Shown here: positions 3,109-60,819 of the stretch, in pieces
Layout of the letters: every line of letters begins with the position of its first letter
How positions within the stretch are numbered: position 1 is the stretch's first letter
NCBI RefSeq assembly: GCF_014199535.1
Contig: NZ_JACHNV010000010.1
Span: 1 to 64,000, forward strand
Direction: 5' to 3'
Length of the DNA stretch: 64,000 nt
Origin: Hymenobacter latericoloratus
GTDB taxonomy: Bacteria > Bacteroidota > Bacteroidia > Cytophagales > Hymenobacteraceae
The notes under the pieces: model-generated
What the model was told of the DNA's origin: nothing
Database searches by the model: none
The model's input: only the letters and a program-made list of their open reading frames with translations
Program-made: the position numbers and the translations under genes

Positions 3109-4464
3109 ATGAAAATCGAACAGTTTGAAGACAAGGGCTTGGCCCACTTTTCCTACGCTATTCTCAGCGAGTGCGCCCGCGAAATCGTGCTCATCGACCC
3201 CGCCCGCGATCCGCAGCCCTACTATGACTACGCCAAGGCGAACGACGCGAAAATCGTCAGCGTTATCGAAACCCACCCCCACGCTGACTTTGTGAGCAGC
3301 CACCTGGAAATAGCCCAGACCACCGGAGCCACCATCCGCGTGAGCAAGCTGCTGGGAGCTGATTATACCCACGAAGCTTTCGATGAAGGCCATTCCTTCA
3401 CAGTGGGCAAACTGACTTTCCGCGCCCTGAACACGCCGGGCCACTCGCCCGACTCCATCAGCATCGTAGTGAGCCGCGAGGGCAAAGACGAAGCCGTGTT
3501 TACCGGCGACACGCTGTTTATCGGCGACGTGGGCCGGCCCGACCTGCGCGAAAAAGCCGGCAACATGACGGCCAAGCGCGAGGAGCTGGCCCGGCAGATG
3601 TATCACTCCCTGCGCGACAAGCTGATGCCGCTGGCCGGCACGGTGCTGGTCTATCCCGCCCATGGCGCGGGCAGCCTCTGCGGCAAGGCCCTCAGCGGCG
3701 CTAACAGCAGCACCATCGCCGACGAGAAATTCGGCAACCCTATGCTGCGGGAAATGAGTGAAGAGGAGTTCGTGAAAGAGCTGCTCGCTGACCAGCCCTT
3801 CATCCCGAAATACTTCGGCTACGACGTGGCCCTGAACAAAGCCGGTGCGCCCGATTACAAGCCGAGCGTGCAGAAAGTGAACCGCCTGGCTGCCGGCACG
3901 GCCCTGGAAGCCGGTACCATCCTAGTTGATACCCGACCCGAAGCAGAGTTCAAGCAGGGCCACATGGACGGCGCCATTAATATCCAGCAGGGCGGCAAGT
4001 TCGAAACCTGGCTGGGTTCCATCGTGGGGCCGGAAGAGCCGTTCTACCTGGTGGCAGCCGACGAGGCGACCCTGGAAGACCTGATCCGGAAAACGGCCAA
4101 AATCGGCTACGAGGCCCTGATCAAGGGGGCATTGGTCGGCTCGCCATCTTCTGAGGCGAAGCTACCGAAGCTGGATGTGGAGCAGTTCCGCCAGCATCCC
4201 GAGCAGTACACCATTGTGGACATCCGCAACGCCACCGAGCACCGCGACGAGCCCATTTTTGCGGACGCGCTCAACATTCCGCTGCCCGAGCTGCGGGAGC
4301 GGGCCCAGGAAATCCCCACCGATAAGCCCGTGGTAGTGCACTGCGCCGGCGGCTACCGCTCGGCCGCGGGCTCCAGCATCGTGGCCGATGCCCTGCCCGG
4401 TACGGAAGTGCTCGACCTGAGCGAGGCCGTCAAGTCTTTCCAGTCCGCCTCCGCCCAGCACTAA
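3109..4464 (+). CDS. MBL-fold persulfide dioxygenase with two rhodanese domains
   Basis: A 451-residue fusion. Residues 1-230 are an ETHE1-type metallo-beta-lactamase fold with the metal ligands THPHADF (His56, His58, Asp60), GHSPDS (His112) and FTGDTLFIGDVGRPDL (Asp134). In this family the enzyme oxidises glutathione persulfide to sulfite with O2. Two rhodanese domains follow. The first (about 255-340) has no active-site cysteine, where VAADEAT replaces the usual loop. The second (about 355-450) has an intact loop HCAGGYRS. Start is ATG at 3109; an in-frame TTG six bases upstream is less likely. Substrate specificity is inferred from the family. Confidence 0.9.
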   Translation: MKIEQFEDKGLAHFSYAILSECAREIVLIDPARDPQPYYDYAKANDAKIVSVIETHPHADFVSSHLEIAQTTGATIRVSKLLGADYTHEAFDEGHSFTVGKLTFRALNTPGHSPDSISIVVSREGKDEAVFTGDTLFIGDVGRPDLREKAGNMTAKREELARQMYHSLRDKLMPLAGTVLVYPAHGAGSLCGKALSGANSSTIADEKFGNPMLREMSEEEFVKELLADQPFIPKYFGYDVALNKAGAPDYKPSVQKVNRLAAGTALEAGTILVDTRPEAEFKQGHMDGAINIQQGGKFETWLGSIVGPEEPFYLVAADEATLEDLIRKTAKIGYEALIKGALVGSPSSEAKLPKLDVEQFRQHPEQYTIVDIRNATEHRDEPIFADALNIPLPELRERAQEIPTDKPVVVHCAGGYRSAAGSSIVADALPGTEVLDLSEAVKSFQSASAQH

Positions 4465-4477
4465 TTCCCAACGGCCG

Positions 4478-4511
4478 ACCGGGGAGCCGCCCTGCAGGCG
4501 GGCTCTCCGGT
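4478..4511 (+). terminator. intergenic hairpin after the dioxygenase gene
   Basis: A GC-rich stem with one wobble and one bulge: ACCGGGGAGCC pairs with GGCTCTCCGGT across a short loop centred on TGCA. It starts 14 bases after the stop codon. No T-run follows, so it may attenuate transcription or protect a processed 3' end rather than stop transcription fully. Confidence 0.4.
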
Positions 4512-4530
4512 TGCCTGACGGCCTTATCCT

Positions 4531-4905
4531 ATGCCTTCGCTCACGTTGCTTCTTCCCCTCTTGGCCATGCTGAATTTCTTTCAAGGCGCTACGCCCGCCT
4601 ATAAAAACCTCACCCCTGCTCAATTCTCCGCGGCCCTGCGCCAGCCCGGCGCGGTGCTGCTGGACGTGCGCCGCCCCGACGAGTTTGCCGGTGGCCACCT
4701 GCCCGGGGCCGTGAACATCGACGTCACCGCGCCCGACTTCGCCCAGCGCGTGGCGGCGCTGGATAAAACCAAGCCCACCTACGTGTACTGCCGCAGCGGC
4801 GCCCGCTCGGCTAACGCCGCCGGGCAGCTGACCAAAAGCGGCTTTGCGCACGTGTCGAACCTGCTGGGTGGCGTGCTGGACTGGCCCGAAAAGCTGGTTC
4901 GCTAA
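4531..4905 (+). CDS. single-domain rhodanese, exported or membrane-anchored
   Basis: A 124-residue rhodanese (sulfurtransferase). A hydrophobic N-terminus (LTLLLPLLAMLNFFQ) suggests export or a membrane anchor. The domain shows VLLDVRRPDEFAGGHLPGAVNID and the active loop CRSGARS with Cys87 as the persulfide-carrying residue. Such single-domain proteins move sulfane sulfur between partners. The neighbours (persulfide dioxygenase, YeeE/YedE, DsrE) all handle sulfane sulfur. Start ATG at 4531. Confidence 0.88.
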   Translation: MPSLTLLLPLLAMLNFFQGATPAYKNLTPAQFSAALRQPGAVLLDVRRPDEFAGGHLPGAVNIDVTAPDFAQRVAALDKTKPTYVYCRSGARSANAAGQLTKSGFAHVSNLLGGVLDWPEKLVR

Positions 4906-5583: not shown

Positions 5584-6207
5584 ATGAACACTGCTTTCCA
5601 ATCCGCGGCCGCCGAGTTCTGGGACGCCCGCTACGAAAGCGAGGCGTATGCCTACGGCACCGAGCCCAACACGTACCTCCGCCAGCAACTGGATAAGCTG
5701 CCGCCTGGCCGCCTGCTGCTGCTGGCCGAAGGCGAAGGACGCAACGCCGTGTACGCCGCCCGGCGCGGGTGGCAGGTAACGGCGGTGGACTTCAGCGACG
5801 AGGCCCGCGCTAAGGCCCAACGCCTGGCCGTATCCCAGGGCGTGCACCTGGACTACCAGGTGGACGATGTGACCAGCCTGCGCTGGCAGCAGCCCGGGCA
5901 CTATGACGCCATAGGCCTGATCTATGCCCATCTACCGCCCGTGGCCCGCTGGGCCGTGCACGCGGCCGCGGCCCAAAGCCTGGCATCCGGGGGACACTTG
6001 ATTCTGGAAGCCTTCAGTCCCCGCCAGTTGGGCTTGCCCTCCGGCGGCCCCCAATCGGCCGAACTGCTCTACGACCCCGACACCCTGGCCTCCGATTTCG
6101 CTGGGCTCACGGTACGGGAAAACCACGAGCTGGGTGTCGTTCTGCACGAGGGCAGCTTCCACTCCGGGCCGGCCAATATTGTGCGCCTGCTGGCCACGCG
6201 CTCCTAA
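5584..6207 (+). CDS. class I SAM-dependent methyltransferase
   Basis: A 207-residue Rossmann-fold methyltransferase. Motif I is LLLLAEGEGRNAVYAARRGW (about 41-60), followed by VTAVDFS, where the acidic residue binds the ribose of SAM, and by HYDAIGLIYAHLPP (motif IV region). The family includes TehB-like and thiol methyltransferases. Placement between the two YeeE/YedE halves, with only 21-24 bp on each side, suggests a sulfur- or chalcogen-related substrate, but the sequence does not show which. No membrane segment or signal peptide. Confidence 0.8.
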   Translation: MNTAFQSAAAEFWDARYESEAYAYGTEPNTYLRQQLDKLPPGRLLLLAEGEGRNAVYAARRGWQVTAVDFSDEARAKAQRLAVSQGVHLDYQVDDVTSLRWQQPGHYDAIGLIYAHLPPVARWAVHAAAAQSLASGGHLILEAFSPRQLGLPSGGPQSAELLYDPDTLASDFAGLTVRENHELGVVLHEGSFHSGPANIVRLLATRS

Positions 6208-41457: not shown

Positions 41458-43467
41458 CTACTGCTCGGCCTTTTCCTTAATCAGATGGCGCAATGCTGGG
41501 TCCTGCTTGATGCGGGTCAGCTCGCGGGCGCATAGCTCTTTCACGTCCGTTTTCACCCGGTTGAAGTTGGCCTTAATCATCTCCTCGGCCTCGTCCTTGC
41601 CCGTAGTCGGATTGATGAAGCTGGTAATATCAGGGATGGGCTGGTAGCCGCTGGCTTCCGCCGCTACGGCCTTCACGTCTACCTGGATGCGGGCGTGAAA
41701 CACCTTCTGGTCGATTTCCTCGCCGAAGTTGTCGGCTACCGCTCCCACGAAATTACCCTGGGTGAGGTTGGCAATGGTGCTGGCCGGAATCATGCTGTCC
41801 ATCTGCGTGGAAAGGCTGGTGCTCGTCTCACGCATGTTGATGCTCAGGCTCTGGCGCCGCTGCAGAATCTTGCCGAACCGCTCGCTTAGCCACTTGCCGC
41901 TATTGCCCGATACCTGCCCGCTGAACACGTTGCCCACCGTGTTCTTGATGACCTCGGCCTCCTTCTGCCCGTAGTCGCGCTCCAGCTGCGAGAAGTCCTG
42001 GAAGCCCAGACAGGTGCTCACCTTGTTGCTGCGGGCCGTGGCAATGAGGTTATCGAGGCCCTTGAAGTAAATGGTGGGCAACTCGTCAATGATCAGCGAC
42101 GACTTGCGCTTGCCCTTCTGGTTGACCAGCTTCACCAGCCGGGCGTTGTAGAGGCCCAGCGCGGCCCCGTAGATGGCTTGGCGCTCGGGGTTGTTGCCCA
42201 CGCACAACACCTTGGGCTCCTCGTTGCTGTTGATGTCGAGCGTAAAGTCGTTGCCCGACATCACCCAGTAGAGCTGGGGCGAAGCCAGCCGGCTCAGCGG
42301 AATCCGGGCGCTGGCAATCTGCCCTTCCAGCTGCTCAATGGCGTCCTTCTGAAAGGCCGATACGAAAGGCTTCACCAGATTCTCAATTTCCGGGTACGAG
42401 GCCAGCACCGGGAAAATCTCCTCGTAGTCGCGGCTCAGAAACTCGATAACGTGGGGAAAGGTGCAGTACTTGCCCTTCTCGAACAGCTTCAGAAACCAGA
42501 TGATGGCCGCCACGAAGTTGATGGGTGACTCCACGAAAAAGTCCCCCTGCTTCTGAATCCAGCTCTTGTTCAGGTTCAGCATGATGGTCGACGCGCTTTC
42601 GTAGGCGTCCACGATGTCGGTCATCAGCTCGGGCAGCAGCGGGTTGCAGCGGTGGCTTTTGCGCGGGTTGTCGAAGTTGATGACATAGAAGCCCACCGGC
42701 CTATCGAACTTGTCCTGGTGACGCAGCAGCGTGTTGTAGCAGATGCGGCTCAGGTCGTCAAACTTGTAGTCGTAGATGTACATGCAGAAGCCCTTGGCTA
42801 GGTGCTGCCGGATAAACTCGTTGATGATGGCAAAGCTCTTGCCCGAGCCGGGCGTGCCCAGCACCATCGTGGCCCGGAACGGATTCACCACGTTTAGCCA
42901 GCCGCGGTGCTTCTTGCCGCGCAGCCAGTACTCGGTGCGCAGATTCACCGAGTACTCGTTTTCCATCAGCCGCTCCTCCTGCGGGAAGCTCTCGTTTTCC
43001 TTGTTGAAGATGTCCTTCAGCAAGTCGTTGTTGAACAGCCGGCTCAGCCACGCGCCGGCACTCAGTAACAGCAGAAAACCGGCCGTCAGCAGTCCGGTGT
43101 AAAGCACCGTCGTCAGCCCGGCTCCCAGCGTCAGCCCGCGCACTGCATCCGCCCCGAAGAGCAGCAGCAGCCCCAGCGCGGCGGAGCCCGCCACCGTCCG
43201 GCCTCTGAGCTCCTGGTTAGCCCGCCCCCGCGTGCCCAGGCAGCTGAGCAGTAAGAATACCACGGCCAGGCTCTTGCTAACCCAGCTGGCTTTGAACAGA
43301 AAGGTATTTCGCGTGAAGCTCTCCAGCAGGTGCTCCACCACTCCCGTCGTCCAGCCCAGAGAGCGGAAGTATCCGAAGCAGTAGTAGTAGATGTTTACAG
43401 CCAGCAGCCCGATGGCAAACAGGCGCATAAACTCCATGATTTTCCGTAACCCCTTTTCGTCGTCCAT
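41458..43467 (-). CDS. type IV secretion coupling protein (TraG/VirD4 family)
   Basis: A 669-residue membrane ATPase that links the relaxosome to the mating pore. Three or four N-terminal helices (to about residue 165) precede the ATPase. Walker A is LGTPGSGKSFAIINEFI (about 205-221), Walker B SLIIDELPTIYFKGLDNLIATARSN, and QDFSQLERDYGQKEAE is the TraG motif. Start ATG at 43467 (DDEKGLRKI). It follows the relaxase on the same strand with about 130 bp between. Confidence 0.9.
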   Translation of the reverse strand: MDDEKGLRKIMEFMRLFAIGLLAVNIYYYCFGYFRSLGWTTGVVEHLLESFTRNTFLFKASWVSKSLAVVFLLLSCLGTRGRANQELRGRTVAGSAALGLLLLFGADAVRGLTLGAGLTTVLYTGLLTAGFLLLLSAGAWLSRLFNNDLLKDIFNKENESFPQEERLMENEYSVNLRTEYWLRGKKHRGWLNVVNPFRATMVLGTPGSGKSFAIINEFIRQHLAKGFCMYIYDYKFDDLSRICYNTLLRHQDKFDRPVGFYVINFDNPRKSHRCNPLLPELMTDIVDAYESASTIMLNLNKSWIQKQGDFFVESPINFVAAIIWFLKLFEKGKYCTFPHVIEFLSRDYEEIFPVLASYPEIENLVKPFVSAFQKDAIEQLEGQIASARIPLSRLASPQLYWVMSGNDFTLDINSNEEPKVLCVGNNPERQAIYGAALGLYNARLVKLVNQKGKRKSSLIIDELPTIYFKGLDNLIATARSNKVSTCLGFQDFSQLERDYGQKEAEVIKNTVGNVFSGQVSGNSGKWLSERFGKILQRRQSLSINMRETSTSLSTQMDSMIPASTIANLTQGNFVGAVADNFGEEIDQKVFHARIQVDVKAVAAEASGYQPIPDITSFINPTTGKDEAEEMIKANFNRVKTDVKELCARELTRIKQDPALRHLIKEKAEQ

Positions 43468-43596
43468 TGCTTGAACCGCTTGGTGAATCAAGCAACTTAC
43501 CGCCCTGCCTTACCTCTGGCACGGATTACTTGACGAGCGGTTCAAAGTCAGCGGTGAGATGCACGCTCAGCACACGAAGGGTGACACCCCCTGCCC

Positions 43597-44466
43597 CTAC
43601 TGTCTACGCCCCTTCCGGCGGACTTGCTTCGGCCGTACAGGCGGCGCCGGCTGAGGCAGCGTGGTTGATACCTCGGGACGAGCCTTCCGCTCAGCTTCCG
43701 GCTCCCTAACCGGCTTCACGGATGCCGCCAGGGCCTCCCGCAGCTGCGCCCCTTTGTAGCCTACTTCCTGGCCCCTCAAAGCCACTCCTTCCGTTTCAAA
43801 GCTAACGCCGCGCAATACCCCGCCCTTGTCGTGGGTGTAGCGAATCTCGATGGCTAGTTTTTGCAATTGCAAAGCCAGCCACTGCTCCCCTTCCCTATCC
43901 GACTGCTGCAGCAGCTGCGCCAGCGCCTGACTTACCCGCTGCCGCGCCACCTCCTTGGTGGGGTCTAGTGTCTTCAAACTACGCCGCCTTTCGGGTAGCG
44001 GGTCCATGCCCAGCTCCTGGCTTATCTGCCGCGTGACGGCTGGCTGCCGGTAAAAATTATTATCCGTTCGCAACGCCGGGCCGCCGTCAATCGGCACCCG
44101 GTTCAGGTAGATGTGCACGTGGGCGTGCTGCTTGTCCCGGTGCTCATACACGACCACCTGGTGCCGATCAATCGGTGCTCCCATCAACTCACAATAGCGC
44201 TTGGCCGCCGCCACCTTTTGCGCCTGACTCACGGCTTCCCCGGCCTTCCACGAAAGGACCGTATGCCACACGGGTTTCCGCACGCGCTTGCTCCGGGCCG
44301 CCACGGCCTGCATATCCTGCGCCATCTCTTTCGGGCTTCCTGGAATTACGTTGGAGACCACTAAAAGTGGCGCCTCCCCTGGCTCCTTACCCCTCCCCTG
44401 CCGCTGCCCAGCCCCGTAAGTCAGCGCGCCCTCAAAGTCGCTACCCGTGGTTGTTTTCGCAATCAT
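43597..44466 (-). CDS. mobA: relaxase/mobilisation nuclease (MOBP-type)
   Basis: A 289-residue relaxase that nicks oriT and binds covalently to the transferred strand. The metal-binding HUH motif is EHRDKQHAHVHIYLNRVP (about 110-127), and the active tyrosine may be in LTYGAGQ near residue 17. FYRQPAVTRQISQELG follows. It overlaps the mobC stop by four bases (ATGA). The protein is short, lacking the primase or helicase domains of large relaxases. Confidence 0.88.
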   Translation of the reverse strand: MIAKTTTGSDFEGALTYGAGQRQGRGKEPGEAPLLVVSNVIPGSPKEMAQDMQAVAARSKRVRKPVWHTVLSWKAGEAVSQAQKVAAAKRYCELMGAPIDRHQVVVYEHRDKQHAHVHIYLNRVPIDGGPALRTDNNFYRQPAVTRQISQELGMDPLPERRRSLKTLDPTKEVARQRVSQALAQLLQQSDREGEQWLALQLQKLAIEIRYTHDKGGVLRGVSFETEGVALRGQEVGYKGAQLREALAASVKPVREPEAERKARPEVSTTLPQPAPPVRPKQVRRKGRRQ

Positions 44467-44786
44467 ATCAGGTAGCCTCTAATAATGGTCAGCGCCTCTA
44501 ACAGCTGCGCCTCATGGTTGCTAAACGACTTACCAGCCTGTGCCAGACGCGCAATCTGATTAAGGTTAGTACCAATGCCAACCAGCTGCCGTCGCAACTC
44601 TGCCGGGACGCTTTCTTTTATCTCTACCCCCCGTCCAACGTCCCGCAAATAGGCTGACACCTTCTTATAACCAGCTGCCGCCGCTTTCTCCTGCAGCTCC
44701 TTTTTCTCATCAGGACTTACGCGCACATCAATGCGTGAAGTGCGCGTAGACTCGGCAGTTGTTTCATCTTGATTCTCTGATTCCAT
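44463..44786 (-). CDS. mobC: MobC-like relaxosome accessory protein
   Basis: A 107-residue DNA-binding protein with a ribbon-helix-helix start (RIDVRVSPDEKKELQEKAAAAGYKKVSAYLRDV) and the MobC C-terminus (LVGIGTNLNQIARLAQAGKSFSNHEAQLLEAL). It helps the relaxase at oriT. It is the first gene of the mob operon; a consensus promoter lies about 60 bp upstream. Confidence 0.88.
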   Translation of the reverse strand: MESENQDETTAESTRTSRIDVRVSPDEKKELQEKAAAAGYKKVSAYLRDVGRGVEIKESVPAELRRQLVGIGTNLNQIARLAQAGKSFSNHEAQLLEALTIIRGYLI

Positions 44787-44845: not shown

Positions 44846-44876
44846 CAAATCTAAGCAGCTAGACCTAGCAAGCCAA
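44846..44876 (-). promoter_or_regulatory. mob operon promoter (minus strand)
   Basis: On the minus strand TTG (44876-44874), a 20-bp spacer and TAGATTTG (44853-44846) give a full match to the Bacteroidota consensus. The start point would be near 44839, about 53 bases before mobC. The -33 box overlaps the outer arm of the candidate oriT, so relaxosome binding may repress the operon. Confidence 0.7.
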
Positions 44877-44953
44877 GCCATGTGAGCCTGCGAACTTGGC
44901 GGTGTCATTGACTCTGGCAAACGAAGTTTGTCCGGACAATGACATGGCTTGCT
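44871..44953. other. candidate origin of transfer (oriT)
   Basis: Three inverted repeats are nested or overlapping: AAGCCATGT (44875-44883)/ACATGGCTT (44942-44950), TGTCATTG (44903-44910)/CAATGACA (44937-44944), and CAAAC (44918-44922)/GTTTG (44926-44930) with a GAA loop. The palindrome GTCCGGAC follows the inner hairpin. It stands directly upstream of mobC-mobA. This is the layout of a MOBP-type oriT. The nick site cannot be named from sequence. Confidence 0.6.
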
Positions 44954-45307
44954 GGTCGATGAACGAACGGATTGAACGAGGACGTTGAACGGGGCTAGGA
45001 CTATAACTAGCGCGCTTCTTTGCATCATTGCTTCCTTGCTTCAATGAAGCACTTAAAACACGAATTAAACTTGGTGATGAAGGACCAGAACATTTGAATA
45101 CACATTGCTACTATCTACTGCAATTTCTGCTTCAAAGAATCGGTGCTTCATTGCTTCATTGCTTCACACGTAGCTTTTATACTACTTGTAAAATTGCCAC
45201 GTTACTATTGCTTCGTCGCTTCATTGCTTCATTGCTTCACTGCAGGTTTCTCAAAGTTTTATTTTTTGCTTCAGTGCTTCATTACTTCGGCGCTTCAATT
45301 TAATCAT

Positions 45308-45336
45308 ACTTCAATGCTTCATTGAAGCATTGAAGT
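45308..45336. repeat. 29-bp near-perfect palindrome inside the array
   Basis: Two 14-bp arms (45308-45321 and 45323-45336) are exact reverse complements around a single T. Each arm holds two phased repeat units (ACTTC and GCTTC), so the repeats converge on one centre. A smaller version, GCTTCA-A-TGAAGC, is at 45038-45050. Confidence 0.85.
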
Positions 45337-45365
45337 ATTGATGCGCTGACAGTCTGCTTCTATAC

Positions 45366-45396
45366 TTCGATAATTCAACGAGGCTATGTATCTTTG
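45366..45396 (+). promoter_or_regulatory. parA promoter within the repeat array
   Basis: TATCTTTG at 45389-45396 is a full -7 match; 20 bp upstream is TTC (45366-45368) in place of TTG. A second -7 match, TAACTTTG, is at 45485-45492. Both are flanked by repeat units, so a protein bound to the array would control parA. Confidence 0.5.
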
Positions 45397-45544
45397 ATGC
45401 CTTGCTTCTTTGCTTCAGCGACTCTTGAACAGTTAGAAGCTCTGAAGCACAGAAGCAAAGAGTCAATGCTTCATTGGCACATTGTAACTTTGAAGCATTG
45501 ACGCATTATGAACCGACTACCACTTTTTTAAAACCACTCACCTA

Positions 45545-46360
45545 ATGAAAAACACTCGGGTAATTGCCTTTGCCACTCAGAAGGGTGGGGCTGGCAAATC
45601 CACCATCGGCACGCACGTCGCCTCGGCGCTCTGCTATCTCTACGGTTACAAAGTGGCGATGCTTGACTGCGACTATCCGCAGAACACCTTGCACGCCTAC
45701 CGCAGCCACGAGCAGCAGCTTCTGCAATCCGACGTGGCTTTTCAGGAGCGGCTCATCAAGCAAGGGGTAACGCCTTACCCGATTGCTATTTCGAGCGTTG
45801 AAAAGGCCGTTGAGGCGATTGACACCCTAGCCGAGAAAGAGTTCGATTTTATCCTGGTGGATACGCCTGGTACGGTCAACGTTGTGGGGTTGAGCGAACT
45901 GCTAGAGCGAGTAGACTACATCTTTCTGCCCATGGAGCCGGATATGGGAACCATTGCCTCCACGATGTCCTACATGCACATTCTGGGCAACTTCACCCAT
46001 AAGCAGCGGCCGGAATCCAACCTGGCAGGCTTTTACGCCTTCTGGAACAAGTTTCTCAAGGCGGAGAAGCGGACGGTTTACACGAAGACCGCCGAGCTGT
46101 TTCGTGAAAAGGGCTATCCGCTGCTCAACAGCCGGGTGGAGTCCCTGGTCAGCATCAAGGACAAGCGCTCCACGATGTTTCCTATGCCGGAAAAGGAGCT
46201 GGGCAAACTCGGCCTGGGCAGCCTGATTACGGAGATTCTGGAATTGGTGCTCGGCAAGGGCACGGTTACCCCCTCGGGCAAGACCATTGACTTCACGCCC
46301 ACGGAATTCGAGCAGCCGGCCCCCGCTGCCCTTGAAACCCTCGACGACAACGCTAAATAA
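45545..46360 (+). CDS. parA: ParA/MinD-type partition ATPase (TraA-like)
   Basis: A 271-residue ATPase with a deviant Walker A KGGAGKST (13-20), Walker A' (VAMLDCDYPQNTLHAY) and Walker B FILVDTPG. It segregates the replicon with a DNA-bound partner. The order ParA then a small ribbon-helix-helix protein matches traA-traB of CTnDOT-like elements and also partition cassettes. It is preceded by the repeat array and followed after 11 bp by its partner. Confidence 0.9.
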   Translation: MKNTRVIAFATQKGGAGKSTIGTHVASALCYLYGYKVAMLDCDYPQNTLHAYRSHEQQLLQSDVAFQERLIKQGVTPYPIAISSVEKAVEAIDTLAEKEFDFILVDTPGTVNVVGLSELLERVDYIFLPMEPDMGTIASTMSYMHILGNFTHKQRPESNLAGFYAFWNKFLKAEKRTVYTKTAELFREKGYPLLNSRVESLVSIKDKRSTMFPMPEKELGKLGLGSLITEILELVLGKGTVTPSGKTIDFTPTEFEQPAPAALETLDDNAK

Positions 46361-46371
46361 CGCCCGCTCCC

Positions 46372-47061
46372 ATGGCCAAGAAAACCACTGAATCCAAAGA
46401 AGCCGCGGCCGAGCGGCGCCAGCGTGAACTTGCTGCCCTCACCTCGGGCGTTGCTGCTTTCAGCCTGATGGGCGACGCCCCCCGGCCAGTGGCGCCGGCA
46501 CCGGCGCCCGCTGAAGCATCCGCAGCTGCCGTTGCGGAGACTCCTGCCGCGCCGTCGATGCCCCCCGCGGCTGAAGTCGCTCCCCCCGCTGCTGCAAAGG
46601 AACCAGCGGGAAAAAAGGCGACGCCTGCGCCAGAGGTGGCGGCCGTACCCGCGGCACCCGTTCAGGCGGTAGAACCCGCAGCAGCGGCGCCGGCACCAGT
46701 AGGGGAGGAGCCCCGCGCGGCCGCCCCCGCACCACTGCCTTCGCCAGCTCCGGCCAGCGCGCCGGAAGAAGAAGACGGGGAGGAAGCCGAGGAGTTGCCC
46801 GTTGCCACACCGGTCACGGCAGGTGGGGAGCTTGACTTGGCGCAGCTGTTCGTGCCTTCGGCGGAGAAGAAAACGACCACCCTCCGCATCACGGCCGACC
46901 ACCAGCAGTATTTCACCCAGCTCGGCTTTATCCTGGGCGGGGGCGCGTCGGCCCCGGATATCATTCATAACATTCTGAATCGCTTTCGGCAGGAGCACGA
47001 AGCGCAGCTGCAGAAGGCGATGAAAAAGCAGATCCGCCAGATGATGGCACCCAAAAAATAG
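46372..47061 (+). CDS. ParB-like ribbon-helix-helix partner (DUF3408-like)
   Basis: A 229-residue protein. Residues 1-155 are low-complexity Ala/Pro/Glu (many AAPAP and PAAEV runs) and probably disordered. The C-terminal 65 residues carry the fold: TTTLRITADHQQYFTQLGF (strand and first helix), ILGGGASAPDIIHNILNRFRQEHE (second helix). This resembles the DUF3408/TraB family. It is the obvious candidate to bind the upstream repeats. A terminator hairpin starts four bases after the stop. Confidence 0.72.
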   Translation: MAKKTTESKEAAAERRQRELAALTSGVAAFSLMGDAPRPVAPAPAPAEASAAAVAETPAAPSMPPAAEVAPPAAAKEPAGKKATPAPEVAAVPAAPVQAVEPAAAAPAPVGEEPRAAAPAPLPSPAPASAPEEEDGEEAEELPVATPVTAGGELDLAQLFVPSAEKKTTTLRITADHQQYFTQLGFILGGGASAPDIIHNILNRFRQEHEAQLQKAMKKQIRQMMAPKK

Positions 47062-47264: not shown

Positions 47265-49106
47265 GTGAAGGGCGGTGCTATCTGGGCCGTGCTCGGCCTG
47301 CTACTCGTCAGCCCCGGCGCCCGGGCCAACACCCGGACGCCATCTTCCAATAAGACGCCGCAGACCATCGACTCGCTGCGGGCCTTGGTGCGCCACGCCC
47401 CGCTGCCAGATTCCGCTCGCTTTCAGGCGCTGTTGGCATTAAGCGATAAGCTATTTGCCCAGGATGTGGCCGAAGGTCGCCGGGTAGGAGAGCAGGCAGT
47501 AACGTTTGCCCGGCGCCGGCTTGACTGGTCAGGGACAGCCGACGCCTTGTATCAGCTGGTGGTAAACTGTGAGCGGGCTGCCGACTACGTGGCCGCCATG
47601 CACTACAGCCAGCAGGGCGTGGAACTCACTCGTGCGCACCGACCCCGCGACCAGTGGCGCTTCACCCAATGCCTGGGCCTGGTGGCCGTGGATACCAAGG
47701 ATGCGGCCGGTGGCCTGCGCTACCTGCGCCAGGCTTACCGGCAGCAGGCCGCTACCCTCTCGGTAGGGCCCCGCGAGCGGGGTGGCCTGCTGCTGAACCT
47801 GGCCAATACCTTCCTGGTGCTGCAGCGCTACGATTCGGTGCTTCACTACGCCACGCGGGCTTTGCCTTACATGCAGCGCGCGGCCGACGCCCGGGGCCTG
47901 GGTTACGTGTACCAGTTTCGGGGCGAAGTGTATGCCAAGCTGATGCCCCGCTCGCGGGCCAGCCTGGCGGCCGCGGCCACGAACATGCAGCGGGCCCTGC
48001 GCATCATGCAGCACTACCGCTACCAGCCGCAGGCAGCCAGCTCGGCGCTTTCGCTGGCGCGCGTGTACCGCCTGCAGGGTCGGCCCCGGGCCGCCCAGCG
48101 GACGGCGGAGCTGGCCTTGGCCCTGGCCCGCGCGGAGAAAATGCCCGAGTACGAAGCGGATGCCCTCTCCAGCCTGGCCTGGGCCTATGCCGACCAGAAG
48201 CGTCCCGCTCGTGCGGATGAGCTCGACGCCCGGGCTGAGGATCTGCGCGATTCGCTCTTCAACGGCAATAAGGCGCAGGCCCTGGCCCAGCTGCAGGTGC
48301 GCTACGACGTGCAGCTGCTCACCGAGCAGAAAAAGGCGGCTGAGTTTGAACAGCGCAGCCAGCGGGCCCAGCTGCACTCACTCTGGCTGCTGCTGGGCGG
48401 CCTTGCCACGACCGTGGGCGTGGGTGGGGGCCTGTACTGGCGGCTGCGGCGGCAGAAAGCCCTGTTGGCCCTGGCCAACCAGGCCAACTGCCGGGCCGTG
48501 GCCGAGAAGGAAGTGTTGCTGCAGGAAATTCACCACCGAGTCAAAAACAACCTGCAGCTGGTCAGCAGCCTGCTGGCCTGGCAGCGCAGCACCCTGCCCG
48601 ACCCCGTACTGCAGCAGGCCCTGGCCAGTTCGCAAGCCCGCATCCAGAGCATGGCCCTGGTGCACGAGTTTCTGTACCGGGCCGACAACCTCTCGCAGGT
48701 GCGCATGAACGAGTATCTGGGCGAGTTGCTGGAATCCCTGCACCGCTCGCTTACCACGCCCCAGCAGCGCATTCAGCTGAGCAGCAGCCTGACGCCCCTG
48801 GTCATGGACCCCAAAGAAGCCAGCGCCCTGGGCCTGGTGGTGAATGAGTTGGTGACCAACGCCTACAAGCACGCGTTCCAGGACCGGGACCGTGGTCATC
48901 TGCACGTGGCGCTGGCACAGACTGCTGCCGGCTTCCAGCTTACGGTGCAGGATGACGGGGCGGGCTTACCAGCGGCGGGAACTGTGCCCGAAACTCATTC
49001 GCTGGGCTTGCAGTTGGTGAATACCCTAGCTCGACAGCTAAAAGCCAGCGTGTCGACCGCTCCCATTCTTCCCACGGGCACCCAGGTTACCGTGGCCAGC
49101 GTTTGA
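47265..49106 (+). CDS. sensor histidine kinase (LytS-like, HisKA_2) with TPR region
   Basis: A 613-residue kinase beginning with GTG. A signal peptide (GLLLVSPGARA) leads to a periplasmic region of TPR-like helices (about 60-340; for example EKMPEYEADALSSLAWAYADQKRP), then one membrane helix (LWLLLGGLATTVGVGGGLYW, about 368-387). The phosphoacceptor segment is LLQEIHHRVKNNLQLVSSLLAW (about 420-441), of the HisKA_2 type, followed by an ATPase domain (LVVNELVTNAYKHAF; DDGAGLP). It pairs with the LytTR regulator 34 bp downstream. Signal unknown. Confidence 0.85.
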   Translation: MKGGAIWAVLGLLLVSPGARANTRTPSSNKTPQTIDSLRALVRHAPLPDSARFQALLALSDKLFAQDVAEGRRVGEQAVTFARRRLDWSGTADALYQLVVNCERAADYVAAMHYSQQGVELTRAHRPRDQWRFTQCLGLVAVDTKDAAGGLRYLRQAYRQQAATLSVGPRERGGLLLNLANTFLVLQRYDSVLHYATRALPYMQRAADARGLGYVYQFRGEVYAKLMPRSRASLAAAATNMQRALRIMQHYRYQPQAASSALSLARVYRLQGRPRAAQRTAELALALARAEKMPEYEADALSSLAWAYADQKRPARADELDARAEDLRDSLFNGNKAQALAQLQVRYDVQLLTEQKKAAEFEQRSQRAQLHSLWLLLGGLATTVGVGGGLYWRLRRQKALLALANQANCRAVAEKEVLLQEIHHRVKNNLQLVSSLLAWQRSTLPDPVLQQALASSQARIQSMALVHEFLYRADNLSQVRMNEYLGELLESLHRSLTTPQQRIQLSSSLTPLVMDPKEASALGLVVNELVTNAYKHAFQDRDRGHLHVALAQTAAGFQLTVQDDGAGLPAAGTVPETHSLGLQLVNTLARQLKASVSTAPILPTGTQVTVASV

Positions 49107-49140
49107 TGCCGGCCCCTCGCCTCGTCCCTTATTCCACTCT

Positions 49141-49902
49141 ATGGCTACCATCCTCATTGTTGAAGACGAACTGCTGATTGCCGCCGAGATTGAACGCGCC
49201 CTGGTCCGGCTGGGCCACACGCCCCTGCCGCCCGTGGACAACAGCGACGAAGCGCTGAGTGTACTGGCCGCCCAGCCCGTGGAGCTGGTACTGATGGACA
49301 TCAACATTGCCGGCGACTGCGACGGCATTGCGGCCGCGCTGCTTGTGCGGCGGCAGTTTGCCGTGCCGGTGGTGTTTCTGACGGCCCGCTCCGACTCGGC
49401 CACCCTGAACCGGGCCAAGCTGGCCCAGCCCTACGGCTTTCTGGTCAAACCCTTCACCGATGATTCGCTGCGGGTACAGATTGAGCTGGCCCTGTTCAAC
49501 GCCTACGAGGCCGGGCCGGTGGGGCCAGTGCTGGACACGGCCGACGCCGGCACGGAGGTGCTGGGTCCCGCCGAGCGCTGCCCCAAGTTCAAGGACTACC
49601 TGTTCGTGCGCAAAGGTTCGGGCCACGTCAAAGTGCTGCTCAGCGACATCCTCTACTTCGAGGCCCTGCAGAACTACGTGCGCCTGCACACGGTGCGGGA
49701 GCGGTTTGTGTTTGACTCCACCCTTAAGGAGCTGGAGCAAAAGCTGCCCGACCAGTTTTTCAAGACCCACCGCTCCCACATCGTAAACCTGGACCACGTG
49801 CAGGCCTATGAGGAAAGTAGTGTGCTGCTGGGTACCGAATACGTGCCGGTGAGCCGTTCCTGCAAGGACGAGCTAAAGAGCCGCATTCACTTGGTAGGGT
49901 AG
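49141..49902 (+). CDS. LytTR-family response regulator
   Basis: A 253-residue regulator. The receiver domain has VEDE (7-10) and the phospho-accepting Asp53 in VLMDINIAG, with the lysine in LVKPF. The LytTR DNA-binding domain is ILYFEALQNYVRLHTV then FFKTHRSHIVNLDHV and VPVSRSCKDELKSRI. It is the partner of the upstream kinase. The pair sits between the par cassette and the mating-pore operon and may control conjugation. Confidence 0.88.
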   Translation: MATILIVEDELLIAAEIERALVRLGHTPLPPVDNSDEALSVLAAQPVELVLMDINIAGDCDGIAAALLVRRQFAVPVVFLTARSDSATLNRAKLAQPYGFLVKPFTDDSLRVQIELALFNAYEAGPVGPVLDTADAGTEVLGPAERCPKFKDYLFVRKGSGHVKVLLSDILYFEALQNYVRLHTVRERFVFDSTLKELEQKLPDQFFKTHRSHIVNLDHVQAYEESSVLLGTEYVPVSRSCKDELKSRIHLVG

Positions 49903-51844: not shown

Positions 51845-52177
51845 ATGCCCGTCTACGACCTTAATCGCGGCATCAACAAGCCCGTCGAATTCAAGGGGCT
51901 GGTGGGCAGCAACATCTACTTTTTGGTGGCTGGCATCGGGCTGGTGTTTGCCCTGTTCGTGACCTGCTACCTGGCCGGCGTGCCGCTGGCACTCACCGTG
52001 CTGCTCACCTTTCTGGCCGGGGGCGGCATGTGGGCCGGGGTATTTGCCCTGAACCGCCGCTTCGGCGAGCATGGGTTGATGAAAGCCGCCGCCCGCCGCT
52101 CCTCGCCCCGCTACATCACCAACCGGCACAGCCGCCTTTTCCAACGCCTCAACCAGGACCCGCCCGGCCGCGCGTAG
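51845..52177 (+). CDS. traF: conjugation protein TraF (DUF4133)
   Basis: A 110-residue membrane protein of the DUF4133/VirB3-like family: YDLNRGINKPVEFKGLVGSNIYFLVAGIGLVF, a second helix (PLALTVLLTFLAGGGMWAGVFAL), and a basic tail (ARRSSPRYITNRHSRLFQRL). Start ATG at 51845, 12 bp after traE. Confidence 0.87.
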   Translation: MPVYDLNRGINKPVEFKGLVGSNIYFLVAGIGLVFALFVTCYLAGVPLALTVLLTFLAGGGMWAGVFALNRRFGEHGLMKAAARRSSPRYITNRHSRLFQRLNQDPPGRA

Positions 52178-52203
52178 CGGCCGGCACGGGTGCTTTCCCG
52201 CCT

Positions 52204-54690
52204 ATGAGCAACAAGGTTCTGCCCTCCGTTTCCCTGGAATCTAAGCAGCCCATCTACAAGGTGGAGAAGGACTGCCTCGTCTCGAAAAACGCGGACGTGA
52301 CGGTGGCGTTCCGGCTGGAGCTGCCGGAAATCTTTACCCTCTCGCGCGAGGACTACGCCCAGCTGCAGGCCGCTTTCGTGAAGGCCGTGCGCCTGCTGCC
52401 CGACCACTGCGTGGTGCACAAGCAGGACTGGTACGTGGAGGACAAGTACGCGCCGGGCTTCGAGGCCGAGCGCACGCTGCTCTCCGCCGCCTACGAGCGG
52501 CACTTCAACGAGCGGCCGTTCCTCAACCACTTCTGCTACCTCTACATCACCAAAACCTCGTCGGAGAGGCCCAACTGGGGCAGTACCTCGGGGCTGCTGG
52601 CCCGCCGCCACATCGTGCCCAAGGACATGCTCGACACGAAGGTGCTGGAAAGCTTCTTCGACAGCGTGGGTCAGTTCGTGCGCACGCTGGAAGGGGTGGG
52701 GCCTACCAACGCCCCCTTTATCCGCTCGCACCGGCTTACCTCCGATGAGCTGGCTGGCACCCAGGAAAAGGCCGGGCTGCTGGAAAAGTACCTCTCGCTG
52801 GACCTGTCCGACCAGGCCCTGCAGGTGGACCTGGACCTGACGGGCGGGCTGAAGGTGGGCCAGGATTTCTGCCAGATGTTCTCGGTGGCCAACCTCGATG
52901 ACCTGCCCACCTCGGTGGAAACTGACATCCGCTACGAGGCCTACAGCACCGAATACTCGGACTTTCCCATCTCGTTTGCCGCGCCACTGGGGCTGCTGCT
53001 GGGTACCAGCCACATTCTGAACCAGTACGTGTTTCTGGATAACACCCAGAAAACGGTGAAGACCTTCGAGCAGAAGAAGGACCGGCTCAACTCCCTTTCG
53101 CTCTACTCCCGGCAGAATGCCATCAACGTGGAGTACTACCACACCTTTCTCAACGAGCTGATTGCCCATAAGCGCCGCCCGGTGCGGGTGCACTGCAACG
53201 TGCTGACCTGGGGTAGGAGCGAGGAGGAGCTGACGGAGGTGCGCAAGCTGGTGAATGCCGCCTTTAACCAGATGAACTGCAAGCCCCGGCAGAACACCGT
53301 GGACATTGCCGCGCTCTACTGGGGTGGCATTCCGGGCAACGCCGGCGACTTTCCCAGCGAGGAGACCTTCTACACCTTCATCGAACAGGCCGTCTGCTTC
53401 TGGGCCTCGGAGACCAACTACCGCTCCACCGGGGCCACCAAGGGCATCAAGCTTTCCGACCGCCTCACCGGCAAGCCTGTGCTGGTGGACATTTCCGACG
53501 AGCCCATGAAGCGGCAGGTCATCTTCAACCGCAACAAGTTCGTGCTCGGCCCCTCGGGCTCGGGCAAATCATTTTTCACCAACCACATGGTGCGCCAGTA
53601 CTACGAGCAGGGCGCCCACGTGCTGCTGGTGGACACGGGCAACTCCTACAAAGGCCTCTGCGAGCTGGTGGGCGGGGTGTACTTCACCTACGAGGAGGAT
53701 GCGCCCATTGCCTTCAATCCCTTCCTGATTTCGGGCAAGCTGGACGTGGAGAAGAAAGAGAGCATCAAAACGCTGCTGCAGGCGCTCTGGAAAAAGGACG
53801 ACGAAGCGGTCAGTCAGTCGGAATACGTGTCGCTCTCCACAGCCGTGAGCCTGTATTACGTGATGCTCGAAGCCAACCCGGCTATTCAGCCCAGTTTCAA
53901 CACGTTCTACGAGTTTGTGAAGGGCACCTACCGCAAAGTGCTGGAGGAGGAAAAGGTGCGCGAGAAGGACTTTGATATCGACAACTTTCTCTACGTGCTC
54001 GGGCCCTACTACCGGGGCGGCGAATACGACTACCTGCTCAACTCCGATAAGGAGCTGGATCTGGTGCAGGCCCCGTTCATCGTCTTCGAGCTGGACAACA
54101 TCAAGGACCATCCCATTCTGTTTCCGGTGGTCACGCTCATCATCATGGAAACCTTCATCTCCAAGATGCGCAAGCTCAAGGGGGTGCGGAAGATGATTCT
54201 GATTGAGGAGGCCTGGAAGGCGCTGACCACGCCCGGCATGGCCGCCTACATCAAGTACCTATTTAAGACGGTGCGCAAGTTCTTCGGCGAGGCCATTGTG
54301 GTCACGCAGGAAATCGACGACATCATCGGCAACGAGATTGTCAAGGATGCCATCATCAACAACTCGGACTGCAAGATTCTGCTCGACCAGCGCAAGTTCA
54401 TCAACCGCTTCGAGGAGATTCAGGCCCTGCTCTCGCTCACGCCCAAGGAGAAGGACCTAGTGCTGAGCATCAACCGCGACAACCAGCCCGCGCGGGGCCG
54501 CTACACCGAGGTATTCATCTCGCTGGGCGGGGTGGTGTCGAAGGTGTACGCCATCGAGGTGTCGAAGGAAGAATACGTGACCTACACCACCGAGGAAACC
54601 GAGAAAGTGCGGCTGTTCGAGAAGCTGCGCCAGACCGGCGACATGCCCACGGCCATCAAGCTCTTCGCCGCCGAGCTGCGCGAAGGGTAG
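52204..54690 (+). CDS. traG: conjugation ATPase TraG (VirB4 family)
   Basis: An 828-residue ATPase that powers the mating channel. Walker A is LGPSGSGKSFFTNHMV (about 445-460) and Walker B KMILIEEAWKAL (about 662-673), followed by EAIVVTQEIDDIIGNEIVKDAI. The N-terminal 400 residues are the VirB4/TraC-type domain. Start ATG at 52204 (SNKVLPSVSLESKQPIYKVE). Confidence 0.92.
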   Translation: MSNKVLPSVSLESKQPIYKVEKDCLVSKNADVTVAFRLELPEIFTLSREDYAQLQAAFVKAVRLLPDHCVVHKQDWYVEDKYAPGFEAERTLLSAAYERHFNERPFLNHFCYLYITKTSSERPNWGSTSGLLARRHIVPKDMLDTKVLESFFDSVGQFVRTLEGVGPTNAPFIRSHRLTSDELAGTQEKAGLLEKYLSLDLSDQALQVDLDLTGGLKVGQDFCQMFSVANLDDLPTSVETDIRYEAYSTEYSDFPISFAAPLGLLLGTSHILNQYVFLDNTQKTVKTFEQKKDRLNSLSLYSRQNAINVEYYHTFLNELIAHKRRPVRVHCNVLTWGRSEEELTEVRKLVNAAFNQMNCKPRQNTVDIAALYWGGIPGNAGDFPSEETFYTFIEQAVCFWASETNYRSTGATKGIKLSDRLTGKPVLVDISDEPMKRQVIFNRNKFVLGPSGSGKSFFTNHMVRQYYEQGAHVLLVDTGNSYKGLCELVGGVYFTYEEDAPIAFNPFLISGKLDVEKKESIKTLLQALWKKDDEAVSQSEYVSLSTAVSLYYVMLEANPAIQPSFNTFYEFVKGTYRKVLEEEKVREKDFDIDNFLYVLGPYYRGGEYDYLLNSDKELDLVQAPFIVFELDNIKDHPILFPVVTLIIMETFISKMRKLKGVRKMILIEEAWKALTTPGMAAYIKYLFKTVRKFFGEAIVVTQEIDDIIGNEIVKDAIINNSDCKILLDQRKFINRFEEIQALLSLTPKEKDLVLSINRDNQPARGRYTEVFISLGGVVSKVYAIEVSKEEYVTYTTEETEKVRLFEKLRQTGDMPTAIKLFAAELREG

Positions 54691-59658: not shown

Positions 59659-60819
59659 ATGAGAATCGCCCTTGCCCTCTGCACCCTGCCCCTCAGCCTA
59701 GCTGTGGCACCCGCCCTCGCTCAATCCACGACGCTGGCCAGCACCCGACCCGTGGCCCCAGCGGCTCCGGCTAAGCTCGCGACGTATCCGCTGTTTGTGT
59801 CGGAGCAAAAGACCACCCACTTGGTATTTCCCTCCCCGGTCACCTACGTCGATTTGGGCAGTGCCGGGCTGATTGCAGCCAAGGCTACGGGCTCCGAAAA
59901 CATCGTGCGGGTCAAGGCGGCCGGCAGCGGCTTCAGCGAAACCAACATGACCGTGCTCACGGCCAGCGGCAAGCTCTACTCCTTCGTGGTGGGCTACCAG
60001 CGCAACCCGCGCCAGCTGGGCCTGGACCTGGGCGCGCCCAGCGCGGGCCCGGCTAAGCTGCCCGTGCTCCCGCTCTACGTCTCGGACCAGAAAACTACCC
60101 ACCTTGTGTTTCCCTACCCGGTCACCTACGTCGACCTGGGCAACTCCGGCATTCTGGCCGCCAAGGCCACGGGTGCCGACAACATCGTGCGCGTGAAGGC
60201 GGCCAGCAACCACGTGACCGAAACCAACATGACCGTGCTGACCTCCGGTGGCAAGCTGTACATGTTCGTTGTCAACTACCAGCACGACCCGAAGGTGCTG
60301 AGCCTGGACCTGAGCACGATGACCAGTTCCACTGCCCAGGCCGGCAGTGGCAGCGAGGCCATCCTGTCGAACACGCCCATTCCGCAGGGCAACCTGGATG
60401 CCTATTCTAAGCAGGCGCTGGCACGCGGCGGCTCGGTGGCCAGCGATACGAAAAACCAGCTTAGTGTGCGCGCGGGCAGCGTGGGCTACCAGCAGGAAAC
60501 TTTGTTTTTCCCGCTCCACCTGCGCAACCGCTCCAATGTGACGTATGATGTGGATTTCGTCAAGTTCTACATCCAGGACAAGAAGGTAGCCAAGCGCACG
60601 GCCGAGCAGGCCATTGAACTGACGCCTACCTACGTCTACAACGGCAACGAGAAAAAAATTGAAGCCGCCGGCAAGCTCCAGCAGGTATTCGTGTTCAAGA
60701 AGTTCACCATTCCCGACCAGAAAAACCTGGTCGTCGAGGTGTACGAAAAAGGGGGCGGGCGCAATATCAAGCTCAGGCTTTCCAACAGCGACCTGCTCCG
60801 GGCCCGCGGCTTCCGGTAG
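59659..60819 (+). CDS. traN: conjugation protein TraN (DUF4138) with duplicated domain
   Basis: A 386-residue exported protein (signal peptide LCTLPLSLAVAPALAQ). TraN normally has one copy of the beta-rich domain KTTHLVFP-x-PVTYVDLG; here it occurs twice: residues about 36-124 (EQKTTHLVFPSPVTYVDLG ... FVVGYQ) and about 136-216 (DQKTTHLVFPYPVTYVDLG ... FVVNYQ). The usual C-terminal domain follows (FFPLHLRNRSNVTYDVDFVKFYIQDKK; FKKFTIPDQKNLVVEVYEKGG). Last gene of the transfer operon. Confidence 0.88.
   Translation: MRIALALCTLPLSLAVAPALAQSTTLASTRPVAPAAPAKLATYPLFVSEQKTTHLVFPSPVTYVDLGSAGLIAAKATGSENIVRVKAAGSGFSETNMTVLTASGKLYSFVVGYQRNPRQLGLDLGAPSAGPAKLPVLPLYVSDQKTTHLVFPYPVTYVDLGNSGILAAKATGADNIVRVKAASNHVTETNMTVLTSGGKLYMFVVNYQHDPKVLSLDLSTMTSSTAQAGSGSEAILSNTPIPQGNLDAYSKQALARGGSVASDTKNQLSVRAGSVGYQQETLFFPLHLRNRSNVTYDVDFVKFYIQDKKVAKRTAEQAIELTPTYVYNGNEKKIEAAGKLQQVFVFKKFTIPDQKNLVVEVYEKGGGRNIKLRLSNSDLLRARGFR

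Follow-up and report, generated by a model that had tools for sequence, protein, structure and literature searches.

The array of short GCTTC-type repeats between mobA and parA, at positions 45014-45496, probably serves a type Ib-like partition system of a low-copy conjugative plasmid as its centromere (parS), and probably as an operator as well. We studied this array in a window of 64,000 nucleotides of Hymenobacter latericoloratus (positions 1 to 64,000 of the 85,924-bp contig NZ_JACHNV010000010.1) and in related loci. An earlier, sequence-only reading had taken it for the centromere of a ribbon-helix-helix (RHH) partner protein. The comparisons speak for this: the lattice of boxes is far above chance and the strongest on the contig, its period is usually kept among relatives of the ParA protein, the word written in the boxes follows ParA and its partner rather than MobA, and co-resident systems with a marked array have differing top words; the RHH fold of the partner is itself probable. 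Further support comes from parA as the sole AAA_31-type ParA found on the contig, with no ParB_N match there, and from a known analogue, the region before parF on a plasmid with ParG, where the period is likewise 8 bp. For this system we infer a low copy number, binding of the array by the partner, segregation, repression and a coupling of partition to transfer.

The window locus belongs to a wider pattern, for which we use the usual names, traA for the ParA gene and TraA-TraB for the ParA/DUF3408 pair of Bacteroidota conjugative elements. With slightly less than even confidence, we propose that TraA-TraB of the conjugative plasmids and integrative elements is a partition system with an RHH family to itself. 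Its centromere, located from oriT to traA, would hold strictly to the 8-bp lattice while the box diverges freely, which would give many mutually compatible specificities, and it would couple segregation of the element to its transfer.

The mobA-parA intergenic region contains 19 GCTTC and 6 GAAGC pentamers, i.e. 25 exact boxes, with the first base at 45014 and the last at 45496; these are exactly the limits given before, and the claimed number of more than twenty pentamers was also correct. In dinucleotide shuffles of positions 45014-45510 (n = 500), the mean number of GCTTC/GAAGC boxes was 2.1 and the maximum 7, against the 25 of the real sequence. Within the range of 5-24 bp, same-strand pairs of GCTTC or of GAAGC were spaced exclusively by 8, 16 or 24 bp. 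The self-match of the array at lag 8 was 0.495, compared to 0.269 ± 0.020 (maximum 0.329) in 1000 shuffles. When the whole contig was scanned with a 400-bp sliding window, the top signal at lags 8 and 16 coincided with the site of the array.

The boxes fall into four blocks. Block 1 (45014-45050; phase 6 mod 8) and block 2 (45129-45165; phase 1 mod 8) each have four exact boxes and one box with one mismatch, block 3 (45210-45238; phase 2 mod 8) has four exact boxes, and block 4 (45268-45496; phase 4 mod 8) has 13 exact boxes in both orientations plus seven with one mismatch, on 29 lattice sites. Allowing at most one mismatch to the word, 5/5, 5/5, 4/4 and 20/29 lattice sites were occupied in blocks 1-4, respectively. 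Hence, the exact 8-bp period claimed for the array holds within blocks, but there is no single continuous phase, as each block has its own register. Direct and inverted boxes are both present as described, with the correction that the two orientations share the same register: all 15 opposite-orientation pairs within 40 bp of each other were in common register in the window, as were 146 of the 155 opposite GCTTC/GAAGC pairs over 14 distinct upstream regions of the window's clade. Direct and inverted boxes in one register would be expected if each 8-bp site took up a two-fold symmetric dimer. Short direct and inverted repeats upstream of an operon form a layout of the centromere type, with centromere action itself predicted; such repeats are how the available text of a review describes type Ib centromeres (PMC5016525).

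The gene that follows the array, parA (45545-46360, + strand), encodes a 271-aa ParA-family ATPase with the deviant Walker A motif KGGAGKST near its N-terminus. Its matches to the Pfam families AAA_31 (1.3e-12) and MipZ (2.4e-14) are above cut-off and run from residue 4-6 onward. The protein thus has the traits of a type Ib ParA, i.e. it is small, with a deviant Walker A and without an N-terminal DNA-binding domain. Neither a second AAA_31-type ParA nor a ParB_N match was found on the 86-kb contig.

The partner gene (46372-47061, + strand) starts 11 bp 3' of parA, and its product consists of an Ala/Pro-rich N-terminal part and a probable C-terminal RHH-like domain formed by the last ~65 residues. 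For partners of type Ib, the same review describes an N-terminus that is flexible and an RHH domain at the C-terminus (PMC5016525). A Pfam scan assigned no family to the whole protein at E 0.1, nor to its C-terminus at E 10. AlphaFold2 predicted a strand-helix-helix arrangement with low confidence (pLDDT 64.7). A fold search (Foldseek/VIA-align) returned a single row, a human complex I chain with Z 2.1 that we took as meaningless, and sequence searches of the PDB gave chance-level matches only. The claim that an RHH protein follows parA therefore stands as far as the position of the gene is concerned; that the C-terminus has an RHH fold is probable from the model, and the low confidence of that model counts against the centromere reading, as do the lack of an informative structural match and of any Pfam match.

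Of the partners of more distant relatives, six of the 10 that were scanned passed the cut-off of DUF3408 (PF11888), and the C-termini of seven of 17 relatives' partners matched DUF3408 at E 1 or better. A profile-profile comparison of the window-type with the DUF3408-type partner group gave a probability of 86% (E 5e-6, 71 columns). We therefore propose that the partner is a diverged relative of DUF3408 (TraB), apparently too diverged for the Pfam model. Three other kinships were tried and rejected: the partner has no match to PF09274 and reached 12% in an hhalign profile comparison with ParG, while profile comparisons gave 0.2% with omega and 0.9% with MobA.

To compare upstream regions, ParA homologues were collected from the window's family (132 of 150 genomes with any match, mostly remote), from its class (17 of 395 genomes at E 1e-10) and from named genomes (21 loci); homologues of a second ParA system of the own genome occurred in 37 of the 150 family genomes at E 1e-30. 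The start of parA was obtained for 112 of 115 loci, with L053, L058 and L059 dropped for want of a parA match, and the loci formed 31 clusters at 75% ParA identity. For one representative per cluster, we determined which spacing ranked first in the 500 bp upstream of parA. Lags divisible by 3 were excluded, because a period of 12 shares lag 24 with a period of 8 and because of codon lags.

The top spacing was a multiple of 8 in 24 of the 31 clusters, compared to a random expectation of 4.8, and this held for 10 of 11 clusters of the window's family and 14 of 20 other clusters. In the controls, a multiple of 8 came out on top in 6/31 regions downstream of parA, 4/31 parA coding regions, 7/25 far-upstream regions and 2/12 other intergenic regions of the sister plasmid. 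A multiple of 8 was also the top spacing in 25 of the 33 clusters of a second set, which came mainly from a second family (29 of 151 genomes with matches) and shared loci L054-L085 with the first set. Furthermore, 26 of these 33 clusters were above a score that was reached by none of 33 coding and none of 33 downstream controls. The second set includes one Hymenobacter plasmid (L145), and when it is excluded these numbers become 24/32 and 25/32, respectively. Some members of the second family have ParA genes 91-100% identical to those of named Bacteroidales plasmids; the family, or its elements, would appear to be Bacteroidales. Among related parA loci the 8-bp period is mostly kept and the word is altered. 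A multiple of 8 was not the top spacing in 7/31 clusters of the first set and 8/33 of the second, which counts against the centromere reading.

The 8-bp score upstream of parA exceeded 2 in the three Bacteroides/Parabacteroides records and the two Spirosoma records that were examined. It was 4.4 in B. fragilis (top lags 16 and 8), 4.3 in P. distasonis (8 and 16), 3.2 and 3.9 in the two Spirosoma records, and 6.3 in Hymenobacter NBH84. In B. ovatus (L179) the score was 3.75, but the top lag was 28 and lag 8 came fourth; its own cluster was counted via its representative. In the Bacteroidales the boxes are few and degenerate, so that the period shows up in the statistics but no clean word can be read, and this degeneracy is a further point against a centromere. 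Another is locus L148, the one examined case of a ParA (23% identical) that lies beside rep with no mob genes nearby, where lags 8 and 16 were flat. Its top lag was 32 (z 3.2; score 0.6), which a bare count of multiples of 8 would pass. Since lags 8 and 16 are flat yet the top lag is 32, L148 decides nothing on partition versus transfer. Among four chromosomal controls the only fair one was L127, an AAA_31 locus with a 282-aa ParA-like ORF, and it lacked the 8-bp signal; the stretches of L129, L130 and L131 were set from the domain and may be coding. The upstream stretch of L182 ends somewhat before the true start of parA; the ParA of L182 is 77% identical to that of L002, and hence to a near relative of L098. 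The DUF3408 model matched in only 4 of 119 genomes of the window's class and gave no match in the window's own genome, which we also count against the centromere reading. Together with the numbers of ParA homologues, this indicates that the elements are spread over many genera yet occur in a minority of genomes.

Eleven genomes of the window's family contain two to four such systems, which allowed a comparison within single cells, with arrays scoring above 2 regarded as marked. At least two marked arrays were found in five of them (G000, G126, G036, G020 and G088), while the other six are uninformative because each has a single marked array. The top words differed in all five genomes with two or more marked arrays. 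In G036, for example, a pair of systems with 77% identical ParA has the words TTCTG and TTTAC. Differing top words in co-resident plasmids would fit the avoidance of incompatibility, but do not prove it. Two observations weigh on the other side. Marked systems L015 and L183 of G036 have different top words but share ACTTT within the three that rank highest. In G547, from another family, two ParA genes that are 96% identical and have related words coexist on one 3-Mb contig. Both copies are presumably integrated elements, in which case incompatibility need not apply to them.

An 8-bp phased array upstream of a ParA gene has precedents. A ParG query sequence led to plasmids with an identical annotated ParG, of which one (IncX1, TP228-type ParG) was examined. 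In the last 228 bp upstream of its parF, the top lags were 8, 16 and 24 (z 4.4, 3.6 and 3.1), and ACTC-containing boxes were seen in both orientations. Boxes phased at 8 bp before the ParA gene are thus a trait that the window locus shares with the ParG family. ParF-ParG-parH of TP228 also resembles it in that a ParA-family ATPase is followed by a small RHH protein (a probable one in the window), with short boxes in both orientations upstream. In contrast to that system, the window partner is not a ParG and is about three times longer (229 versus 76 aa), the box is a GC-containing 5-bp box rather than ACTC, the array extends over ~480 bp, and the locus lies inside a transfer module. The available text on parH describes degenerate tetramer boxes with AT-rich spacers (PMC7308502).

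Similarly, the Psychrobacter plasmid pP62BP1 has a ParA-ParG pair preceded by 17 adjacent repeats of 8 bp, which were proposed as its parS and whose layout the authors called apparently unique (PMC3346939). These 8-bp repeats also lie upstream of parA but, as far as that text goes, they are identical, contiguous and direct, they are placed between promoter and parA, and the partner has a ParG domain. The lags upstream of parF and the repeats of pP62BP1 make an 8-bp phased RHH centromere a known kind, so that the 8-bp period gives no ground for a new type of centromere, which the sequence-only reading had considered possible. We found no description of an 8-bp phased centromere for ParA-DUF3408 or TraA-TraB in the open-licence literature. 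The 8-bp period itself is not novel. The novelty lies in its occurrence with a ParA-DUF3408 pair within the transfer modules of Bacteroidota, in the family of the partner and in how widely the arrangement is distributed.

The delta-omega-parS system of pSM19035 is a further parallel, as its RHH protein occupies short repeats that adjoin one another, some direct and some inverted (PMC9499535). It differs from the window in having 7-bp repeats and in its omega protein, which has no sequence match to the window partner. As expected, lag 7 was the top lag upstream of the omega gene in our control (L117; z 5.5). Upstream of delta, lag 7 led in the last 212 bp (z 2.7), and over 532 bp the top lag was 11.

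If the array is a centromere, dimers of the partner would dock via their RHH domains on successive 8-bp sites. The two-fold symmetry of such a dimer would let a box be turned round without shifting the dimer, which would account for direct and inverted boxes on one lattice. From the resulting coat, numerous flexible N-terminal arms would project, recruiting ParA and stimulating its ATPase; in type Ib systems, an arginine finger in the arm has this stimulating role. ParA action would then move plasmid copies apart, and the same coat would repress the parA operon. If true, a protein pair of conjugative elements of gut and environmental Bacteroidota would gain both a function and a site of action on the DNA. 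It would also make the position of the centromere predictable in such elements, and in Hymenobacter clades the word as well. The constant lattice with its changing word would be a natural series, useful for studying how RHH proteins read DNA and for plasmid compatibility. Moreover, a module in which the site for partition adjoins the site for transfer would allow a direct test of whether the two processes are linked, as is suspected.

The location of the array raises the question of transfer. In the window, genes for a coupling protein of the Bacteroides type (mobC, 41458-43491, − strand; NF041326, 1053 bits versus a cut-off of 900), a mobB-like relaxase (43597-44466, − strand; Relaxase 9e-27) and a mobA-like relaxosome protein (NikA-like/MobC, RHH-type; 44463-44786, − strand; NikA-like 1e-19) are divergent from parA, and a TraG-type transfer gene (52030-54690) lies downstream of parA. 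This is the layout of Bacteroides conjugative elements, in which parA occupies the traA position by gene order. The stretch that separates the partner gene from the transfer genes (47265-49902) has two ORFs, which correspond to a sensor histidine kinase and a LytTR-type regulator annotated at this position in the sister plasmid. Plasmids of Bacteroides ovatus, B. fragilis and Parabacteroides distasonis have the same order, and the gene after parA is annotated as DUF3408; the B. fragilis record has two DUF3408 genes. Spirosoma and another Hymenobacter plasmid have the mob/parA order wholly or partly (one record begins just before parA). The window therefore resembles the TraA-TraB elements in having mobC-mobB-mobA divergent from parA-DUF3408, followed by transfer genes. 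It differs from them in a partner too diverged for Pfam and in the boxes, since Hymenobacter has more sharply defined boxes than the Bacteroidales. B. ovatus, with its top lag of 28, also deviates in that two small hypothetical ORFs separate mobA from parA.

The array might accordingly be a transfer enhancer of the VirC1/VirC2-overdrive kind, on which ParA and its partner would assemble the relaxosome or set its position, while contributing little to segregation. We consider this unlikely, but it is a serious rival and the best of the alternative explanations because parA adjoins the mob genes in all relatives with a visible mob side, and for the same reason a transfer role is not separated from partition. 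The array lies between the oriT-like block and the transfer operon, and this order recurs in the Bacteroides and Parabacteroides plasmids. Some Agrobacterium enhancers contain 8-bp repeats. Available text on Agrobacterium describes VirC1 as ParA-like and acting with VirC2 at overdrive beside the border, so that this system, too, combines a ParA-like ATPase and a partner with a site beside a transfer border (PMC8716806, PMC4949242). Against an enhancer, the window ATPase stays below the cut-offs of the VirC1 models (PF07015, 15.7 versus 24 bits; NF010423, 18.3 versus 313), and the 86-kb contig would be left with no recognised partition system of type I, given that the search for further ParA proteins on it found none. 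The differing top words of co-resident plasmids also fit incompatibility avoidance, again without proof. Transfer enhancement could be a second role of the same complex. If the array is a centromere, partition and transfer would probably be coupled, since the array adjoins oriT and heads the transfer operon.

Alternatively, the array could act only as an autorepressor operator of the parA/transfer operon, which we regard as improbable. It ends ~50 bp before parA, and it contains boxes of the promoter consensus TAnnTTTG at 45389 and 45485. The same type of box was present in 50 of 88 distinct upstream regions, so that these boxes are weak evidence for a promoter, and the claim that the array flanks the parA promoter is plausible only. 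Type Ib RHH centromere proteins double as repressors (PMC5016525). However, ~480 bp with 25 exact boxes is in our judgement beyond the need of an operator, and block 1 begins ~530 bp before parA.

The change of the word between clades bears on which protein reads the boxes. GCTTC, or TGCTT as its shifted form, was the top word in 20 of the 22 loci of the window's clade (14 distinct upstream regions). Among the loci seen, no otherwise identical par cassette lacked the array, which would have refuted the sequence-only reading: all 22 loci keep GCTTC/GAAGC boxes, although L009 and L040 have just 8 + 3 copies. In the clade with 69% identity (the L013 clade), the word is CAACT/TTGCA, with 0-2 GCTTC/GAAGC copies, and other clades have TTACT, TGAGG, TTCTG or TGATA. 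One upstream region of the L013 clade, held twice (L014 and L045), has a run of GGCT simple repeats before parA, and the top word of these two loci is this simple repeat and not a box.

Identities of MobA and of ParA and its partner do not run parallel among the loci, and can therefore be used to test what the word follows. Over 23 loci, the GCTTC count correlated with identity of ParA (rho 0.82), partner (0.83) and MobA (0.52), where four of the 27 rows were excluded because they had no usable MobA; the loci are related, so that these correlations are descriptive, and ParA and partner are indistinguishable. The word was kept in L008 and L012 (22 and 25 GCTTC/GAAGC copies), where MobA is 56% and 67% identical, and lost in the L013 clade (0-2 copies), where MobA is 79-82% identical. 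By these comparisons, the word follows ParA and the partner rather than MobA.

This makes it very improbable that the array is a MobA-binding array and part of oriT, which the adjacent mobA and the weak RHH_1 match of MobA, in addition to its NikA-like match, might otherwise suggest. Furthermore, the oriT-like hairpin block at 44865-44955, recognised by its fold, is 81-91% identical to the blocks of L013, L015, L021, L022 and L023, i.e. it stays conserved between clades with different words, and is therefore a module separate from the array. Identity of this block is lower or shorter in L008, L010, L012, L025, L027 and L028, and its function as oriT is presumed. Directly past the hairpin, at 44958-44995, spaced TGAACG-type repeats were seen by eye (GATGAACGAACGG, ATTGAACGAGG, GTTGAACGGGG); these are possibly sites for MobA.

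Least credible of all is the replication origin with iterons that the sequence-only reading had offered as an alternative: repeated short words in an AT-richer intergenic region might suit one, but the repeats are not adjacent to rep, whose homologue lies ~35 kb away on the same contig (C10:81000-81938), and the rep of the sister plasmid is preceded by 21-22-bp iterons in which the 8-bp period is absent.

We infer that the 85,924-bp contig is a plasmid, because it has a rep gene (99% identity to rep of the sister plasmid) and because the record of the sister is that of a plasmid (92,427 bp; gene order identical to that of the window); no overlap of the contig ends was found. The genome (G000) has seven homologues of one replication protein family, on contigs C10, C11, C12, C17, C18, C19 and C20, which suggests many co-resident plasmids. 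A third plasmid of the same cell (L136, on C12) has no 8-bp signal but a 9-bp period, with GTAAYAY-like repeats in 130 bp upstream of parA (5654-5783) and at the start of the partner gene (4392-4895, − strand). Within the partner gene these repeats read as three-codon repeats (NISNSSNTSN), and the centromere of this plasmid is possibly embedded partly in the gene. Elsewhere in the window, a near-tandem duplication of 282 bp at 59800-60312 (1.8 copies, 77% matches) lies within the ORF at 59659-60819 and is apparently a duplicated domain.
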